A model generated the notes under the pieces. That model was given only the letters and a program-made list of their open reading frames with translations, had not been told where the DNA came from and made no database searches. The position numbers and the translations under genes were made by a program. This document shows, piece by piece, positions 11,420 through 20,478 of a stretch of DNA of 20,478 nt; position 1 is the first letter of the stretch, and each line of letters begins with the position of its first letter. The stretch covers positions 1 through 20,478 of the IMG/VR virus record IMGVR_UViG_3300037156_000195. The stretch is one strand, 5' to 3'. This DNA comes from a virus.

Positions 11420-13615
11420 TCAGGGGTTCTTGGTGTAGTACCAGCTGGTCGAAATTTCGGCTGCCAGCGGGAGGCCTTCGGTCCAGTCGAAGCCTCGTAC
11501 CATAGTCTCAAGCAGGCGCTCGGCAAAGCCACTAGCCCTAGCCTCGTCGACCTCCGCACCTACCTCGTCATGTGTGTGCAGGACGATTTCGGCTTCGGTC
11601 TCCTCGGCTTCCAGGCGGACAAGCGTCTGGCGCAAGATCGAGGCGGCGGTGGCCTGCGTACCATTCTCAACCTGCAAGCCGTTCCACAGTGAACGGTACC
11701 CCATTCCGTTAAGATAAACGATGGTATCGACCATCTTACCGAACTTCTCGGTCTTCTTTATTTTGGCCTTCGGGTAGACGATTGGCCGGCCGTCCGGCAG
11801 GAAACAGACCAGCGTACCGCCCATCAGGTCAGGGGCAAATTGGTAGCGCAGCTTGCCGGCGCGCTGCATCGACATTGGTGAACGAATGGCAGCGAAGGCG
11901 GCAATCTCGCATTGATCACCAAAGCGGCGGGCCCAGCGATTGCGGTCGCGCCAGCCGTCAACAATCTTTTTCTTCTCCTCGTTGGCCAAACGCAAGCCAT
12001 AGCCGCGCGCCATCGCATTGAGGGCGCCGATCGAGCCAAGGAAACCTAGCGCCAGCACGGCGACCTTTCCCACCTGGCGCATGAACTTGGCTTCCGGGTC
12101 ACCGTTCTTGTAGCGCTCCCACAGGATGTCAGCAGGAATGTTGAAGATGGCCGCGGCATTGTAAATGTAGATATCCGGCAGATCCGGATCGGCGTCGCTG
12201 GCGCGGAACACGTCGAGCACCGCGCGCTCGGCATCGCGGCTGTCAGCCAGCCATGGGTTTACCCGGGCCTCGATAGCTGACCAATCACCCCATACCAACA
12301 GCTTGCCTTCCGGCGCCATAAACGTCGGGCGGATCAACTTGGCGAGCACCGACGAGACCGGCCCGACTTCGCGCAGCTTCTCGATTGGCAACCCAGCAGC
12401 AACCATGTCAAGCACATCGAGCTCGTTATCGAGAAAGGCACGAGGGAGGTTATGGACCTGCACCCCCCGGGAAGAGAACCGTCCTGTCTGCCCCGCGCCA
12501 TTGAAGACATATGAGCCGCCTAGCCGCCCGTCGACGTTCTGGTCCAAGATCTTCTGGAACTTCAACGCCGAGGACGACCGACCGAACTGCAGCACTTCGA
12601 TCAGGTCTATAACCTCATCGGCTGGCGGCGCGTCGCTGACCTGAATTTCCTCGAGTAGGCGCGACATGATGTTCTTGTCACCGGTGAGGTTAGTGACGTA
12701 CCCCTCCTCATCGCGCTTCTTGACCATCAGTTCGGCGAGGTCGTCGGGTAGCCGGTCATAAACCCAGTCATTGATCTGCGCCGTGAAGGTAGGTCCGGGG
12801 ATTTGGCCAGCTGTTATTTCCTTGATCTGCTCAACGACGTAAGCCGCTTCTTCCTCGTGGTACTGTGAAGCGCCTTTACAAACGTCAAGATCGGCGAGCA
12901 TGCCGCGATCGTTGATGCGCTCGGAAACCCAGTATTCCTGCCACTCGCTGGCATCGAGCGGGCGCGTCGTCTTCCACACGGCGCGCATCAGCTCGGTGTC
13001 CTGCACGCTATAGTCGAGGTAGAGCGTCCACGACCCAATGGCGGTCTCAACTGCCTGGGCGCGCGTGCGCCCGTTGGCCATCAGCGCCGCGATGTCGGCC
13101 GGCGAGCCGGGCAGCGGCTCGGCGCGGTTGGCGAAGCGCTGCATGATCGCCTTGCCGCCGATTGTTTTGTGGCCCAATCCTAGAGCTCTTCCCGCCCACT
13201 CAAGGCTGCCGGGCAGGTTGCTGGCTTGGGCTTGCGCCATCGCATCGAGGGTTTTCTCGGTCAACAGCTCGGGGAAATCGTAGTCGGGCGTCGCAATCTG
13301 CTGCCAGACGGCCCGGTCAAAACCGTGATTCCACGCCACGGTATAGCCGTCGTCACGCGCCAAGTGCTTTTCAATGGCCGCCGGTACGCCTGACGGCGCG
13401 CCGTAGTCAGCCATCCGGCTGGTGACGTAGGTCCAAACCTCCTGACAAAGCTCCCCACCCAGGTCCGGGCACCAGAGCTTGATCGGGGCGTCGTCGATCG
13501 CCCAGCTGAGCAGCAGCGGCCGGGTACTCGTGTCGAGCACGTATTTGAGCGTGCCGGTGACCGGCAGGTCGGCGAGCGACTGGGTTTCCCAGTCGAAAAA
13601 GAGCAGGCTGGCCAC
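11420..13615 (-). CDS. Family A DNA polymerase with 3'-5' exonuclease (731 aa), Leu762 type
   Basis: The start is a GTG at 13615, preceded by AAGGA at a seven-base spacing and 13 bases after the methyltransferase stop; the frame stays open for 1.1 kb upstream but that part overlaps the methyltransferase. The exonuclease motifs are DWE (Asp8, Glu10), WNHGFD (Asn96, Asp100) and YSVQD (Tyr202, Asp206). Polymerase motif A is GDWSAIEAR (Asp444, Glu449, Arg451), motif B is [13 protein letters not shown] (Arg513, Lys517), and motif C is HTHDE (Asp683, Glu684). No 5' nuclease domain is present, as usual in phages. At the site matching Escherichia coli Pol I Phe762 there is Leu521, and Phe525 replaces Tyr766. 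It should copy the phage genome together with the primase-helicase. Confidence 0.93.
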
Positions 13616-13628
13616 GGGTTTTTCCTTC

Positions 13629-14789
13629 TCAGGCTTCGATGGTTTGCGTGTCAAGGTAGCTTTCGATCCACGCGATAGCCGCTTCGGCATTGATTGCATT
13701 GCCGTAACCGCGCAGTCGTCCCATTCTGGCGGGAGCCCCATGAGCCAGCGGGAATGTGCCGGGTTCAACTGGCCGCCACTTTCCATCCCGGCAGAAGAGC
13801 CAGTCAACATCTCGCCAGAGGCCGTTAACCGGGCCGGGGTCGCAAACTTCACCGCGTGCTCCAGCGAGACTGTGTGCTTCCGACCGTCCGTCGTCATGCC
13901 CGAGATGCTCATCTTGTCCGTCGACACCGAGCGTCCGCCGCTTGGTGTGTTCGGTGTCGGCCAGCCCGCAAACTGTACCTGATGGTCGAGTGTCGTCGCT
14001 ACTGGCCCCGCGCCGGCCCCAATTTTCCGGGCTATCGCCTGCTCTGGCGTCCCGCCCGGTGCCGAGGCGTTCGGGGTGCCCCAGCCCGCCAGCCAGCACA
14101 CCCGCCCCAGCAAGGCGTTCAACGGCACGTTCACGTCCGGGTTGCCGCCGTCCTTCCAATCCCTCGTCGTCGTCGTCGGCCAGCCAGTCAAGCTTACCGC
14201 TGCGGCCAGGTCCGGGCCGTGATTGCGCATCGCCTCGATCAATGCGCCTTCCTCCGAACGGACGCCCTTGTTCGCTAGCGCCGAAGTTGGCGTCGGCCAC
14301 CCAGTACGTTCGGTCGCGGATGTGCGGCGCACCGACGCCCGCAGACGGGAACGCACAAGCCCCGAAGGCATAACCCAGTCCTTCCAGGTCAGCTTGTACA
14401 AGGTCGAGCCAAGGCTCTGCGTCCTTGCTCGCAACCTGCTCACCAAAGAGCGTTCGAGGGCCGCACTGTTCGATGAGGTGGAAGCCGGCGGGCCAGAGGT
14501 GCCGCTCGTCAGCAAACCCTGCTCCTTTACCTGCCGCGCTGAAAGGCTGGCACGGGAAACTCCCGGTCCATACAGGTCGATCGTCATCCCATCCGGCTCG
14601 CCGGAGGGCGTAAGACCAGACGCCAATTCCGGCGCAGAGATGGACCTGGGTGAAGCTCCGAAGGTCGTCGGGCTGGACGTCCCAAAGGTCGCGTTCGTCG
14701 ACTTCGCCATCGGCAATGTGTCCTTGCTTGATCAGCTCGCGCAGCCACGCGGCGGCCTTCGGGTCGAACTCCGAATAGTAGGCGGGCAT
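13629..14789 (-). CDS. DNA cytosine-5 methyltransferase
   Basis: The start is the ATG at 14789 (MPAYYSEF), with GGAAGGA about 11 bases upstream; a 39-residue extension to 14906 would overlap the HNH gene. The 386-residue product has motif I LCAGIGVW (51-58), the catalytic motif [10 protein letters not shown] with Cys80, a motif VI-like GEQV (116-119), motif VIII RDRTYW (158-163) and motif X GYGNAINA (361-368). The variable region between (about 166-330) is rich in Gly, Arg and Asp and has LAD-type repeats; it looks poorly ordered. It transfers a methyl group to C5 of cytosine, plausibly shielding phage DNA from host restriction. A second long frame runs through the gene on the same strand. 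Confidence 0.9.
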
Positions 14790-14822
14790 GGTTTGGTTTT
14801 TCCTTCCGAGAAGACAGCAAGA

Positions 14823-14843
14823 CCGGCGGCGCGACACCGCCGG
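14823..14843 (-). other. GC-rich hairpin between HNH and methyltransferase genes
   Basis: A perfect seven-base inverted repeat (CCGGCGG at 14823-14829 and CCGCCGG at 14837-14843) encloses a seven-base loop. The minus-strand reading continues TCTTGCTGTCTTC, a poor U tract. It may be a weak terminator, a processing site, or a remnant of HNH insertion. Confidence 0.35.
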
Positions 14844-14866
14844 CCTCGTAGGTTTGTCGCGAAAGC

Positions 14867-15430
14867 TCAGTTGTATAAGTCTCGGTCCAGCGGAACGTGG
14901 TTCCAACTGATACCTTTCGCGATGTCTATCAAAGTAGAGCGGTGCAGATTAAAGCGCCGTTCCAGCGCCACCAATCCACCAGCCACACGTTCCGCCTTGA
15001 CGCGACGGTACTCGCGTCGAATGTACCGGACGTCATCTTCGGTTATCTTAGCGCGTCCGTTGTTCTCGCCCCGTGATTCGGTGCCGTGCAGAATGCGGTC
15101 ATCGTGGTTCTCAATCTGCAGCGCCCAGCGCAGCACGCTATAGTGACAGCCGACGCGCGAACCGTTCCCGTGCGCTACTTCGTGTTTGTCTGACGGTGCA
15201 GGGCCCAAAAACGCCTCCGCAACAAGTACGTGCGCCGCTATCGCACGTTTTATTCCCTCCGTGTCGCGCACCGAGTAACGAAGATAACCGTCAGCATCAA
15301 TAAAACCATGGAAACGAGTGTTTAGCCGGCGTGTAGGGCGCGCGGCGACTAACCGCAAATCACCATATTCGGACACTTCGTACGTCGGAAAACGCGGGCA
15401 TACTCGCCATTGCATAGCTACCGTGGTCAT
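14867..15430 (-). CDS. NUMOD4/HNH-type homing endonuclease-like protein with degenerate catalytic motif
   Basis: The ATG at 15430 follows GAGGG at a six-base spacing. The 187-residue product begins with a NUMOD4-like segment (WRVCPRFPTYEVSEYGDLR, residues 8-26). An HNH_3-type region (AHVLVAEAFLGP at 66-77, HEVAHGNG at 83-90, LRWALQIEN at 100-108) and a helix-turn-helix (LERRFNLHRSTLIDIAKG, 156-173) follow, ending SWNHV. In the family, the stretch after HxNG normally has NNR and a later NL; here it reads VGCHYSVL, so the central Asn and the second Asn are not evident. It may be a nuclease-dead or remodelled HNH protein. It lies in the same direction as its neighbours, between GapR-like and methyltransferase genes. 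Confidence 0.82.
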   Translation of the reverse strand: MTTVAMQWRVCPRFPTYEVSEYGDLRLVAARPTRRLNTRFHGFIDADGYLRYSVRDTEGIKRAIAAHVLVAEAFLGPAPSDKHEVAHGNGSRVGCHYSVLRWALQIENHDDRILHGTESRGENNGRAKITEDDVRYIRREYRRVKAERVAGGLVALERRFNLHRSTLIDIAKGISWNHVPLDRDLYN

Positions 15431-17046: not shown

Positions 17047-18249
17047 TCAACGAGCCGAAAGTCTCTCGGCGAGGAGCTGCAGCGCTTGCGGGGCCATGAC
17101 CACAGCGGGTCGCTTGTCGTCCGCTAGAGCTAGAGTTGTGCCGGACGAGACCTTCTCGACCAGCTTCTTTTTCTGGAATAACTCCGGCAGTTCACTCGGA
17201 AGCCGGTTGCGTTTCAAGGCCTCGTTCGCCTGATTAGGCGAAACAAGTTTCTTGACATAGCGATCCGGCGCCGGGAGGCCGACCTTGGTCAGGTACTTGA
17301 GCGCCAGTTCTTCATCGATCCACTTACGGCGCGCCTGGTTGGCGACGAGTTTCCATCCGGGAATGGCCATGCCCTTCTCCAACTGATCGTGGGCCAGCGT
17401 CTTAATGAAGGTACCGAGCTCAATCAATAGGTCAGCCTGCGGCAGCCACTCGGCCAGGTGCTCGCGCATGTCATCATGTCCCATCTGCTGGGCGTTGGCA
17501 GCGAGATTCTGATAGAGCGGGCAGCCAGATTTCGCTGAGCAGAACTTGCAGTAGGGACCCATCTTCAGCGGCGCATCGGGGAGCAACGCCGTCTCGACGG
17601 CCACGCGCAACTCGACGCCGAACGCCTCGAGCTGCCTTGTCGTGGTCATCCAGCGCGTGAAGCGCTCGCCATCGTTCACCCTCGGCTGGGCAATGAACAC
17701 CTCGACAGGCTTATCATCGGCAAAGAACTTCGCCGTTGCCGGCGTGTGCATGGCTGCTAGGGCGTAGTATTTCAGCTGCGGATTGTCCTCAGCATCAACT
17801 GCGACCCCGCGCCCGAATTTAAAGTCATAGACCACAGTTCGATCTTTTGCGGATCCAACAAGGTCGGTAGTACCAAAGGCATTTTCGATGCCGGGGAACA
17901 CAACACGTTGCTCGGAGAAGAAATCGATGCCACCGAGGGATTTATCGAGATCGTCCCAATGCGCGAGAACCGGGGCCACTGCATCACGGAACATCTCCTC
18001 GTCGATTGTGTAGCCGTTGAAAGTCAAGCCGATCACGTCGGTGTCAGTCTTGGCAATGCCCGACATGATCATGTCCATCGCCATATGAAGTGCTGTACCT
18101 TCCGCGGCGAACTCGGACTCGACGTTCGGGTAGCTGGCGCACAGCTGCACGCTGCCGGGGCACTGCAGCACCCGGCCCGCGCTCGAGCCGCCGACAACGG
18201 TTGAGTGAGCGCGAGCGGTATGGTCGGCGACGGCAAGGATGTTGTTCAC
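17047..18249 (-). CDS. Cas4/RecB-like PD-(D/E)XK nuclease with predicted Fe-S cluster (DUF2800 family)
   Basis: The 400-residue protein opens with SSAGRVLQCPGS (22-33) and AAEGTALH (48-55), the signature N-terminus of the DUF2800 family. Nuclease residues follow: Asp129 in GTTDLVG, Asp142 and Lys144 in VYDFKFG, and Gln158 in NPQLKYYA. Four cysteines (Cys30, and Cys234, Cys237 and Cys243 in YCKFCSAKSGCP) are placed as in Cas4 and AddB-type nucleases that bind a 4Fe-4S cluster. The C-terminal 130 residues look helical and may contact DNA or partners. It probably acts as an exonuclease in recombination or DNA processing. Start is a GTG overlapping the upstream stop (GTGA at 18246-18249). Confidence 0.85.
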   Translation of the reverse strand: MNNILAVADHTARAHSTVVGGSSAGRVLQCPGSVQLCASYPNVESEFAAEGTALHMAMDMIMSGIAKTDTDVIGLTFNGYTIDEEMFRDAVAPVLAHWDDLDKSLGGIDFFSEQRVVFPGIENAFGTTDLVGSAKDRTVVYDFKFGRGVAVDAEDNPQLKYYALAAMHTPATAKFFADDKPVEVFIAQPRVNDGERFTRWMTTTRQLEAFGVELRVAVETALLPDAPLKMGPYCKFCSAKSGCPLYQNLAANAQQMGHDDMREHLAEWLPQADLLIELGTFIKTLAHDQLEKGMAIPGWKLVANQARRKWIDEELALKYLTKVGLPAPDRYVKKLVSPNQANEALKRNRLPSELPELFQKKKLVEKVSSGTTLALADDKRPAVVMAPQALQLLAERLSAR

Positions 18250-18577: not shown

Positions 18578-19015
18578 TCAGTCTTCATACGTTTCGGTTA
18601 ACGGCTTGGTCATGATGGCGGGGCGGCCGGCGCCGGCGCGCCGAGAGCGCGCGGCATGCTTGTTCGATGGCGCCGGGACGTTGTTGAAGTCGGCGCCGCT
18701 GCTGCGATGCTTGCGAAGCATCTGGCCGAGTACGGCGCTGCGGCTGACGCGGTACTGGCTGGCCCAGCGGTCGAGCAGCACCACCTCGGGCTCGAAGAAG
18801 AACACATGCACGTCATAGCGCTTGCCGCGGCCCACCGGGACATCGGTGATCGGCGGTTCGCCGGCGGCCAGGTGCGCCTTGATCAGCTCGGCCAGCACGG
18901 CGCTTCGGCTGGTACGATAGGTCTTCGCCAGCGTGTCGAGCACGCGCATCTCGGGCGGGTAAAAGCCCAGATGGGTGTCGACCTTGTCGCCGCGGTCGAG
19001 CTGCTCAAGACTCAT
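18578..19015 (-). CDS. Tandem ribbon-helix-helix DNA-binding protein (145 aa)
   Basis: Two copies of a ribbon-helix-helix-like unit lie in one chain: residues 13-49 (DTHLGFYPPEMRVLDTLA, then YRTSRSAVLAELIKAHL) and 68-104 (DVHVFFFEPEVVLLDRWA, then YRVSRSAVLGQMLRKH). Each has a beta-strand followed by two helices with the SRSAVL turn typical of Arc/MetJ/CopG-type proteins. The units share roughly half of their residues and probably arose by duplication. They could fold as a single-chain pseudo-dimer that binds DNA. The tail is basic (KHAARSRRAGAGR). It is the second gene after the divergent promoter zone, a usual place for an autoregulator. Its ATG overlaps the upstream stop by four bases. Confidence 0.75.
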   Translation of the reverse strand: MSLEQLDRGDKVDTHLGFYPPEMRVLDTLAKTYRTSRSAVLAELIKAHLAAGEPPITDVPVGRGKRYDVHVFFFEPEVVLLDRWASQYRVSRSAVLGQMLRKHRSSGADFNNVPAPSNKHAARSRRAGAGRPAIMTKPLTETYED

Positions 19016-19257
19016 TTCGATGCCTGCAAGCGCTTAGCCTCTTCGGCTGAAACAGCCTTAAAGGTGGCGTGGTAGCTGTCGGCTTCCAACCGGTTGATCA
19101 GCTTGCGCATCGACTGCACGCGTGCCTTGAAGCGATCCTCGATCGCATCCTGTACATCGGGATGCGCCGAGCCGACGAAGGCATAGTCGGCAGCAGCGCT
19201 CAGCAGGGCGTTCAAAGTCTGCATAGCCCCGGCGCTGATCTTGTATTCCTTGGCCAT
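19012..19257 (-). CDS. Small helical protein, first gene of the leftward operon (81 aa)
   Basis: The ATG at 19257 (MAKEYKISAGAM) is chosen because CGGAG lies seven bases before it; starts at 19275 and 19404 are less well placed, and the latter would cross the promoter. The 81-residue product is predicted to be helical, basic at the end, and has no motif I recognise (QDAIEDRFKARVQSMRKLIN, then AEEAKRLQASK). As the first gene of the long leftward transcript it would be among the earliest expressed. Phages often place small host-acting proteins there, but no evidence for that role is visible here. Confidence 0.6.
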   Translation of the reverse strand: MAKEYKISAGAMQTLNALLSAAADYAFVGSAHPDVQDAIEDRFKARVQSMRKLINRLEADSYHATFKAVSAEEAKRLQASK

Positions 19258-19275
19258 GATCGGCTCCGTTTTCAT

Positions 19276-19304
19276 TTGACAGCGACCCTCATAACGTATT
19301 AAAG
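19276..19304 (+). promoter_or_regulatory. Candidate rightward promoter
   Basis: A consensus -35 box TTGACA (19276-19281) is followed by TATTAA (19297-19302) at 15 bases or TTAAAG (19299-19304) at 17 bases. Transcription would start near 19311, about 40 bases before the ATG at 19352. The -35 is perfect and the -10 imperfect. Confidence 0.5.
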
Positions 19305-19317
19305 GGAGCCTCGTCAA
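19288..19317 (-). promoter_or_regulatory. Candidate leftward promoter interleaved with the rightward one
   Basis: On the minus strand TTGACG (19312-19317) is followed at 18 bases by TATGAG (19288-19293). Transcription would start near 19281, just before the first gene of the leftward operon. Its -10 lies inside the spacer of the rightward promoter, so both cores occupy the same 42 bases. Confidence 0.5.
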
Positions 19318-19351
19318 CCCATAAAGTTGGATAAATCTGAAAGGACCTGAA

Positions 19352-19588
19352 ATGCGGGTCAGAACTTTGCCACAAGTCGCCCACTCGTGGACGAAGGCAG
19401 CCATGGTCTGCTACGGACTCACCAACGACAAGGTGTACCGCAAGTGCTTTTTCTCCACACTATCGGCGCTGAAGAAAGGCGACCTTCAACAAGCTAGGGC
19501 GAACTGTTTCCGTTTTGCCGACGACGCCTACTGGCGTGAGCACCACCAAAACTCTTGGGAAATCGTTGTGAAAGGACCAACCAAATGA
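19352..19588 (+). CDS. Small hypothetical protein, first gene of the rightward operon (78 aa)
   Basis: The ATG at 19352 follows AAAGGA at a six-base spacing. The 78-residue product is basic in the middle and rich in aromatic residues (AMVCYGLTNDKVYRKCFF, then DDAYWREHHQNSWEIVVKG). It has two or three cysteines but no zinc-binding arrangement and no membrane segment. Its stop overlaps the next start (ATGA at 19585-19588), so it is coupled to the solenoid gene. No family is recognised. Confidence 0.6.
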   Translation: MRVRTLPQVAHSWTKAAMVCYGLTNDKVYRKCFFSTLSALKKGDLQQARANCFRFADDAYWREHHQNSWEIVVKGPTK

Positions 19589-20139
19589 AGCATCTCGGCA
19601 ACATGACCGTCACCAAGGAAAACGCCCTGAGCTTTCCGGCCGTCACCGAGTTCTACGGGCACCTGACTATCGCACCGGGTGCCGAGCTGCGCGCCCCCGA
19701 CCTGGTGAGCATCCGCGGCTGGTTGACCATCGGCAAGGACGCCGGCTTTGCCGCGCCGCGCCTCGGGCACGTCGACGGCTGGATCAATCTGCAGCCGGAA
19801 AGCAGTATCATGGCCGAGCACCTAACCGAGATCGTCGGCGACCAGAGCAGCCTGACCATCGGTGCCGACGTCAATCTCGACTTCCGTTCGCTGCGCACCA
19901 TCGGCGGCATGGTCATCCTGCAGCGCGACGCCGTGCAGGATCTGGAAGAGCTGGAAAGCTGCGGCGGCATCGCCGTCGAAGCGCACGGGGCACTGGGCGC
20001 CCCGAAGCTGGTGCGCGTCGGGCGCTCGATTACCCTGCGCGATGGAGCGTCCTTGCGCGCCCCGCTGCTCACGCACATCGGCGGCTATTACGACGGCGAC
20101 GAGACGGCCACGCTGTACGCACCGAGGTTCGGGTCATGA
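19585..20139 (+). CDS. Repeat-solenoid protein (about eight 20-residue repeats, 184 aa)
   Basis: The ATG at 19585 has AAGGA eight bases upstream and overlaps the preceding stop. Almost the whole product is built of repeats of about 20 residues with the pattern LxAPxLxxIxGxLxIxxxA, for example LRAPDLVSIRGWLTIGKDAG, FAAPRLGHVDGWINLQPESS and LRAPLLTHIGGYYDGDETAT. This suits a parallel solenoid with one strand or turn per repeat, related in style to leucine-rich or receptor-L-type repeats seen in some phage proteins. Such surfaces usually bind other proteins, and no catalytic residue is evident. The stop overlaps the start of the VRR-NUC gene by four bases. Confidence 0.7.
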   Translation: MKHLGNMTVTKENALSFPAVTEFYGHLTIAPGAELRAPDLVSIRGWLTIGKDAGFAAPRLGHVDGWINLQPESSIMAEHLTEIVGDQSSLTIGADVNLDFRSLRTIGGMVILQRDAVQDLEELESCGGIAVEAHGALGAPKLVRVGRSITLRDGASLRAPLLTHIGGYYDGDETATLYAPRFGS

Positions 20140-20478
20140 CCAAGCGCGAGCTTGAAAGTGCCTTGGAACTACGCTGCGTCGCCAAGGTCGAGGCGATCGG
20201 CGGCAAGGCGCTGAAGCTCAGGCTCGAAGGCGTGCGGGGGTTTCCGGATCGGACGGTGCTCTTGCACGCGCGTAACCCGCCCCCGATCAAGCCCGGCGAA
20301 TGGCGCGATACATCGCAACACGACGGACAGGTATTCTTCGCCGAGTTCAAGCGGATGCAAGTCGGCGTGATCAGCGCCCAGCAGTCGAAATGGCGCTTCA
20401 TGCTCAATCTGCTCGGCTTCGAGGTCTACATGGTGGACACCGACGAGCAGTTCGGCGCGATCCTGGAGGAATGGAAAT
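20136..20478 (+). CDS. VRR-NUC nuclease, 3' truncated by window edge
   Basis: The ATG at 20136 overlaps the preceding stop (ATGA), and the frame stays open to the end of the window, giving 114 residues. The pattern matches the VRR-NUC branch of PD-(D/E)XK nucleases: an N-terminal Glu-containing helix (TKRELESALELRCVAKVEAI), GFPDR (35-39, Pro37 and Asp38), FFAEFK (67-72, with Glu70 and Lys72), then QQSKWRFMLNLLGFEVYMVD (82-101). Such phage proteins are structure-specific nucleases thought to resolve junctions or trim replication intermediates. Being in the early rightward operon, it probably acts in phage DNA metabolism. Only a few residues are likely missing. Confidence 0.85.
   Translation, partial: MTKRELESALELRCVAKVEAIGGKALKLRLEGVRGFPDRTVLLHARNPPPIKPGEWRDTSQHDGQVFFAEFKRMQVGVISAQQSKWRFMLNLLGFEVYMVDTDEQFGAILEEWK

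Follow-up and report, generated by a model that had tools for sequence, protein, structure and literature searches.

Gene layout at the divergent junction

The window, by which we mean the whole 20,478-bp stretch of DNA that was analysed (G000), is a virus record that carries no completeness estimate and is probably a fragment. Two blocks of genes diverge in it from a 94-bp gap (19258-19351), which has a G+C content of 45% compared with 62% overall and is the site of a 42-base element at 19276-19317, TTGACAGCGACCCTCATAACGTATTAAAGGGAGCCTCGTCAA. Leftward from the gap lie the genes for an 81-aa protein, a ribbon-helix-helix (RHH) protein, a 106-aa protein and a DUF2800 protein, followed by a gene that we take to be DUF2815-like and then by the polymerase gene, these last two being kept in relatives. 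Rightward lie the genes for two small proteins and an endonuclease, which is presumably of the VRR-NUC type. The relatives referred to below are L002 and L003, which are viral contigs with the window's replication genes, and a distant clade, L053-L056.

17047-18249, minus strand: gene for a DUF2800 / PD-(D/E)XK exonuclease-like protein, part of the replication operon that runs leftward
18578-19015, minus strand: tandem RHH protein, 145 aa, the candidate regulator
19012-19257, minus strand: first leftward gene, 81 aa, without a counterpart in L002 and L003
19276-19281, plus strand: rightward -35 box TTGACA, identical in L002 and kept at the corresponding place in L003
19276-19307: 32-bp block identical in L002, spanning the rightward -35, both -10s and the leftward start region
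19288-19293, minus strand: leftward -10 box TATGAG with an 18-bp spacer, aligned with TATGGT of L053-L056
19297-19305, plus strand: rightward -10 region, a weak consensus match of uncertain assignment
19312-19317, minus strand: leftward -35 box TTGACG, aligned with the leftward TTGAC of L002 and L053-L056
19318-19334: CCCATAAAGTTGGATAA, the putative equivalent of what in relatives is the nuclease gene's Shine-Dalgarno side (alignment A5)
19352-19588, plus strand: first rightward gene, 78 aa, relative not detected
19585-20139, plus strand: second rightward gene, 184 aa, present in L002 too
20136-20477, plus strand: VRR-NUC-type endonuclease gene, running to the window end (PHROG 93 endonuclease, E 2.1e-12)

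Sequence searches found no relative of the 81-aa protein among deposited phages or viral contigs and none of the 78-aa protein among deposited phages. Both small flanking genes (19012-19257 and 19352-19588) are without detectable relatives and the same putative promoter has other neighbours in L002; the conserved promoter looks as if it were a border for gene swapping.

Further along the leftward block, a 1098-codon open frame (11420-14716, minus strand) has the polymerase as its C-terminal part. Its N-terminal part is overlapped over about 1.1 kb, on the same strand but in a different frame, by an ORF for a C5 cytosine methyltransferase (13632-14906; PF00145, E 1.2e-11). Methyltransferase and polymerase lie in a single open frame in L002 (7489-11184). 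The helicase of L002 and L003 (L003 261-2741 and L051 921-3398, both on the minus strand) has an insert of about 310 residues (437-747) that is missing in L053-L056 and that, from its motif, we take to be intein-like; a 225-aa HNH-like ORF with no Pfam match lies inside this insert in another frame. At 3185-4119 of L003 (minus strand), just upstream of a complete endonuclease gene, the initial ~33 endonuclease residues occur a second time, joined to an HNH-like ORF, as if a homing-type gene had been inserted.

Two interleaved promoter-like pairs in 42 bases

The original prediction of two interleaved divergent promoters within these 42 bases is borne out, as promoter-like pairs, by the sequence itself, by shuffled controls and by the relatives, and each -10 does lie inside the spacer of the other (-10s at 19288-19293 and 19299-19304). 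The rightward -10 that had been named, TTAAAG at 19299-19304, stands in its position and its 17-bp spacer but is a poor match to TATAAT (3/6), and the overlapping hexamers TATTAA (19297-19302, 15-bp spacer) and TAAAGG (18-bp spacer) score slightly higher. Both -10 boxes of the window are without the conserved final T, and a strict consensus scan, which requires A2 and T6 in the -10, found no promoter in the window. Transcription is predicted to start near 19281 leftward and near 19309-19311 rightward, about 28-30 bp apart. An alternative rightward site, TTAAAG-17-TAAAGT (19299-19327), scores 6.99 in the window and in L002. Immediately beyond the element, CCCATAAAGTTGGATAA is probably vestigial in the window; 19319-19333 is identical in L002.

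Sites were scored with a sigma-70 weight matrix for which we set the penalties ourselves, and which may not suit the sigma factor of the host; on this scale the two sites are the 7th and 8th among 40,886 window starts. Of 2000 dinucleotide-shuffled versions of the 94-bp gap, 0.2% contained an interleaved pair at a cut-off of 7.7, as did 2 of 100 shuffled versions of the entire window, and every interleaved pair in the real window, even at a cut-off of 6, falls at the 19276-19317 site. The interleaved divergent promoter-like pair is real and above chance expectation.

The symmetry of the element carries less weight, and its earlier description as a quasi-palindrome was overstated. Symmetric positions number 11 of 21 pairs, a value matched or beaten (at least 11) at 281 of the 20,435 even centres in the window, and 5 of the 11 are supplied by the two TTGAC boxes. 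Since 11/21 is not rare in the window and the value by position in L003 is 4/16, the palindrome was demoted as the main signal. A T7-like phage promoter was also considered and rejected: the core has TAATACG, yet the 21-mer CCCTTTAATACGTTATGAGGG is single-copy in G000 and G002 and has no copy in G001 at up to 3 mismatches, and phage-type promoters are expected as a repeated set.

Conservation in close relatives

The DUF2800 proteins of L002 and L003 are 86% and 87% identical, respectively, to that of the window over the alignment (85% in the best segment for L003). The gap region of L002 is 84% identical to that of the window over 107 columns. L002 keeps 38 of the 42 bases, 32 of them consecutive, and the sole changes are four bases at 19308-19311, with both -35s, both -10s and the spacings unchanged. 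The 32-bp identical run opens with the rightward -35 box and is the tied sixth-longest identical run between the window and L002. Change rates inside and outside the 42-mer do not differ significantly in L002 (4/42 vs 12/55, Fisher p=0.17), that is, the 42-mer is not significantly better kept than the rest of the gap, and the argument from conservation in L002 alone is therefore moderate. L002 has neither the 81-aa nor the 78-aa gene; there the RHH gene begins immediately at the element, and on the rightward side the element is followed by a different ORF, of 68 aa.

The 32-bp block was not found in L003, in which the rightward TTGACA is kept with a good -10 (score 9.38) and TTGTAA replaces the leftward box. 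The best nested pair in L003 was equalled in 45 of 1000 shuffles. Judged by its sequence, L003 has lost the interleaved pair, and it carries an inverted repeat, TAGCAG-N6-CTGCTA. This region was poorly placed by MAFFT, and the 33-bp form of the element in L003 was read from the sequence by eye. The original prediction was to be abandoned if neither -35 box were conserved in close relatives, and this check did not refute it: both boxes are found in L002 and L053-L056, though L003 keeps the rightward TTGACA only.

A shorter form of the element in a distant clade

L053, L054, L055 and L056 were found with the polymerase alignment, at 58-59% identity; L056, with 99.8% identity to L055 over 3 kb, does not count as an independent case. 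The endonuclease gene, here the first rightward gene, and the RHH gene are back to back in all four, with start codons about 72-80 bp apart. At this junction each record has TTGACNNTA-N14-TANNGTCAA with no mismatch, and this arrangement was found nowhere else in the four records at one mismatch or fewer. The spacers are exactly 17 bp and each -35 overlaps the opposite -10 by three bases, an overlap that is absent in the window and L002. Scored with the weight matrix, TTGACA/C/G-17-TATGGT, which reads toward the RHH gene, is the top promoter-like site of each locus, and TTGACC-17-TAATGT/TAAGGT/TAGCGT, which reads toward the endonuclease gene, ranks 4-6 per locus. A nested pair equal to the real one appeared in none of 1000 shuffles of the gap for each of the four loci. 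Among L053, L054 and L055, invariant columns make up 16/18 of the promoter boxes vs 3/14 of the middle (Fisher p=0.0002). The predicted starts in L053 are 39 bp apart.

TTGAC-N19..36-GTCAA is present at the junction in 6 of the 7 loci, or in 5 of 6 when only distinct loci are counted; its single other occurrence in these loci is in L054. The window, L002 and L053 have in common TTTATGG-N-TTGAC upstream of the leftward -35, and the elements therefore look homologous, beyond mere likeness. The arms span 32 bp in the distant clade and 42 bp in the window and L002, where there are about 10 extra bp between the two -35s; alignment A5 places nine of these in the stretch from the leftward -10 to the rightward -35. 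As a control, the podovirus MW202483, which is the nearest deposited phage by DUF2800 (36%), has a divergent pair at the junction, with the element absent and no RHH gene annotated between the pair.

No close relatives were found in deposited phages by DNA or by RHH protein, none were confirmed in genome contigs, and viral contigs searched with the RHH or 81-aa sequence alone yielded no relative. Searches with RHH alignment A2 and DUF2800 alignment A3 each recovered just the two known contigs. A loose gapped pattern gave 42 stretches (L004-L045), of which L029, on the same contig as L002, was the one examined. L057 was dropped, having 29% polymerase identity and no RHH match. A lysogeny switch was also considered: integrase PF00589 was found in 0 of the 7 records and HTH_3 in 3 of the 7 (above the cut-off in 1), although these records carry no completeness estimate and are possibly fragments.

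The RHH protein as candidate regulator

The RHH gene is adjacent to the element in five of the seven loci and second from it in the other two, a placement that strengthens the original choice of this protein as an obvious candidate regulator. The view of the 145-aa protein as a tandem RHH is likewise upheld, by its predicted fold. Its counterparts are shorter, with 92 aa in L002, 91 aa in L003 and 55-64 aa in L053-L056; the additional length of the window protein comes from a duplicated domain, which is single-copy in the six relatives. An AlphaFold2 model (m7d6eaeae56f7), for which the input was a three-row alignment, predicts two beta-alpha-alpha units, within which the mean pLDDT per block is mostly 78-85, the overall mean being 68. 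A Foldseek search gave no match at E <= 0.001; the best match was to F-plasmid relaxosome chains (E 0.002), presumably TraY, and weaker ones were to a permuted single-chain Arc (1u9p) and viral AvtR (4hv0). The window protein has no Pfam match. Pfam RHH_1 fell below the cut-off in L002 (E 0.026) and L053 (E 0.03), such profile misses being common for a short domain, and the profile from alignment A2 found no PDB sequence. It counts against the reading proposed below that the identification as RHH depends on a predicted fold and on family matches that are weak or sub-threshold.

P22 Arc is a small RHH phage repressor. The predicted fold of the window protein is like that of Arc-like repressors, as are the single-domain versions of 55-64 aa in L053-L056, although no family model scores above its cut-off and the window copy is tandem. 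Strand residues 13, 15 and 17, which we presume from RHH structures to face the DNA, are D-H-G and D-H-F in the two copies of the window, D-H-T in L002, D-H-W in L053-L056 and E-H-H in L003. The last of these would fit a different operator in L003, a match that is suggestive only.

Comparison with known systems

Overlapping boxes within promoters have been described in general terms (PMC11661796). The closest case is that of Pc and Pr of the Bacillus subtilis plasmid pLS20, which are overlapping divergent promoters with mapped starts; by the inference of the authors, each promoter has its -10 at the -35 of its partner (PMC4207663). The likeness lies in two divergent housekeeping promoters on the same DNA, one of which drives the gene of a regulator; the coincidence of boxes is close to the geometry of L053-L056 and is no longer seen in the window. 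The pLS20 system differs in serving plasmid conjugation, in its regulator RcoLS20 and in DNA looping between two operators. At the sequence level, opposite-facing -35/-10 pairs are present on the same DNA between divergent genes in our case, and to that extent the switch point is real and of a kind already known, namely overlapping divergent promoters of the pLS20 Pc/Pr type.

The bidirectional promoters of E. coli and Salmonella have a shared, near-symmetric -10 and starts 7-25 bp apart, 18 being commonest (PMC12825309, PMC10268837). They resemble the element as proposed here in that RNA polymerase binds in opposed directions at a single short stretch of DNA, in many cases between divergent genes. 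The window nevertheless falls outside this class, as defined by Warman and Grainger, in that its -10s are separate and its predicted starts about 28-30 bp apart; the 39 bp between the predicted starts of L053 likewise lie outside the range of 7-25 bp. In five E. coli bidirectional promoters no basal competition was reported, and strong activation of one direction repressed the other (PMC12825309). The literature searched, the coverage of which was partial, yielded no phage or RHH case of such an arrangement.

Proposed mechanism and alternatives

The explanation that we consider probable is that the element consists of overlapping divergent host-type promoters for the RHH/replication and nuclease operons, and that the RHH protein represses both. 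We read the 42 bases as promoters because the pair is rare in shuffles, unique in the window and recurs at homologous junctions. They would form the shared core of two overlapping promoters of the housekeeping type, the leftward one serving the 81-aa gene, the RHH, DUF2800 exonuclease, DUF2815-like and polymerase genes and onward, and the rightward one serving the small genes and the VRR-NUC endonuclease, together with the helicase in relatives. RNA polymerase bound in one orientation would cover the other promoter, so that at any moment it could sit here in a single direction. The RHH protein most likely binds the element and represses both directions, including that of its own gene. This repression would be the likelier control and polymerase interference secondary, because five E. 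coli bidirectional promoters showed no basal competition (PMC12825309). The mutual exclusion of the two operons in the original prediction would thus hold for polymerase occupancy at one instant, but at the level of operons it was overstated, because the five E. coli promoters competed after strong activation and not at basal activity (PMC12825309).

The form found in L053-L056, in which the TTGAC boxes overlap the opposite -10s, may be ancestral, a direction of change that we infer. The extra 10 bp or so in the window and L002, roughly one helical turn, would have separated the boxes and goes with a weaker rightward promoter.

An alternative that we judge unlikely is that the leftward promoter alone is real, the rightward TTGACA being kept as an operator or within the leftward initial transcribed region, and that transcription of the rightward genes begins at a different site, for example TTAAAG-17-TAAAGT (19299-19327). 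The poor rightward -10 of the window (3-4/6) would then be accounted for, and the alternative site does score 6.99 in both the window and L002. Against this, the rightward site of L053-L056 lies at exactly 17 bp, keeps T1, A2 and T6 and ranks 4-6, and L003 keeps TTGACA with a good -10 (9.38) where the leftward one is gone.

It is also possible, although improbable, that the TTGAC/GTCAA arms are primarily half-sites of an RHH operator and that their likeness to -35 boxes is incidental. The RHH gene adjoins the element, symmetric TTGACNNTA words stand at both ends in L053-L056, and L003, where the RHH protein differs at the presumed outward strand residues, has TAGCAG-N6-CTGCTA instead. However, -10-like hexamers stay 17/18 bp from the leftward TTGAC at arm spans of both 42 and 32 bp, and arms so distant would need more than one RHH tetramer, as follows from the geometry of such tetramers. 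That the pair arose by accident, in a gap richer in AT than the genome as a whole (62% G+C), and is conserved under other constraints is very improbable: the 45% G+C of the gap does raise promoter-like scores and the strict scan was empty, but composition-matched shuffles rarely reproduce the pair, which is present again at the homologous junctions of L002 and of three distinct members of the distant clade.

The explanation by overlapping promoters under RHH control also has a bolder version, which is tentative and which we think unlikely. Here the 9-bp word TTGACNNTA would stand twice as an inverted repeat, 14 bp apart, and each end of this repeat would act at once as a -35, as the opposite -10 and as a half-site for an autorepressing, Arc-sized RHH protein. 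If true, the early decision between replication and nuclease/helicase would be wholly encoded in 32 bp, and in the window lineage the added helical turn and the doubled RHH domain would have co-evolved as a rewiring of this decision.

For this uncultivated phage group, the element provides a compact, sequence-defined and phylogenetically supported candidate for a switch between two early operons, with the RHH protein as its candidate regulator. Its natural variants, with forms of 32, 33 and 42 bp and with single or tandem RHH proteins, make the orientation of the polymerase and the control by the repressor directly testable.
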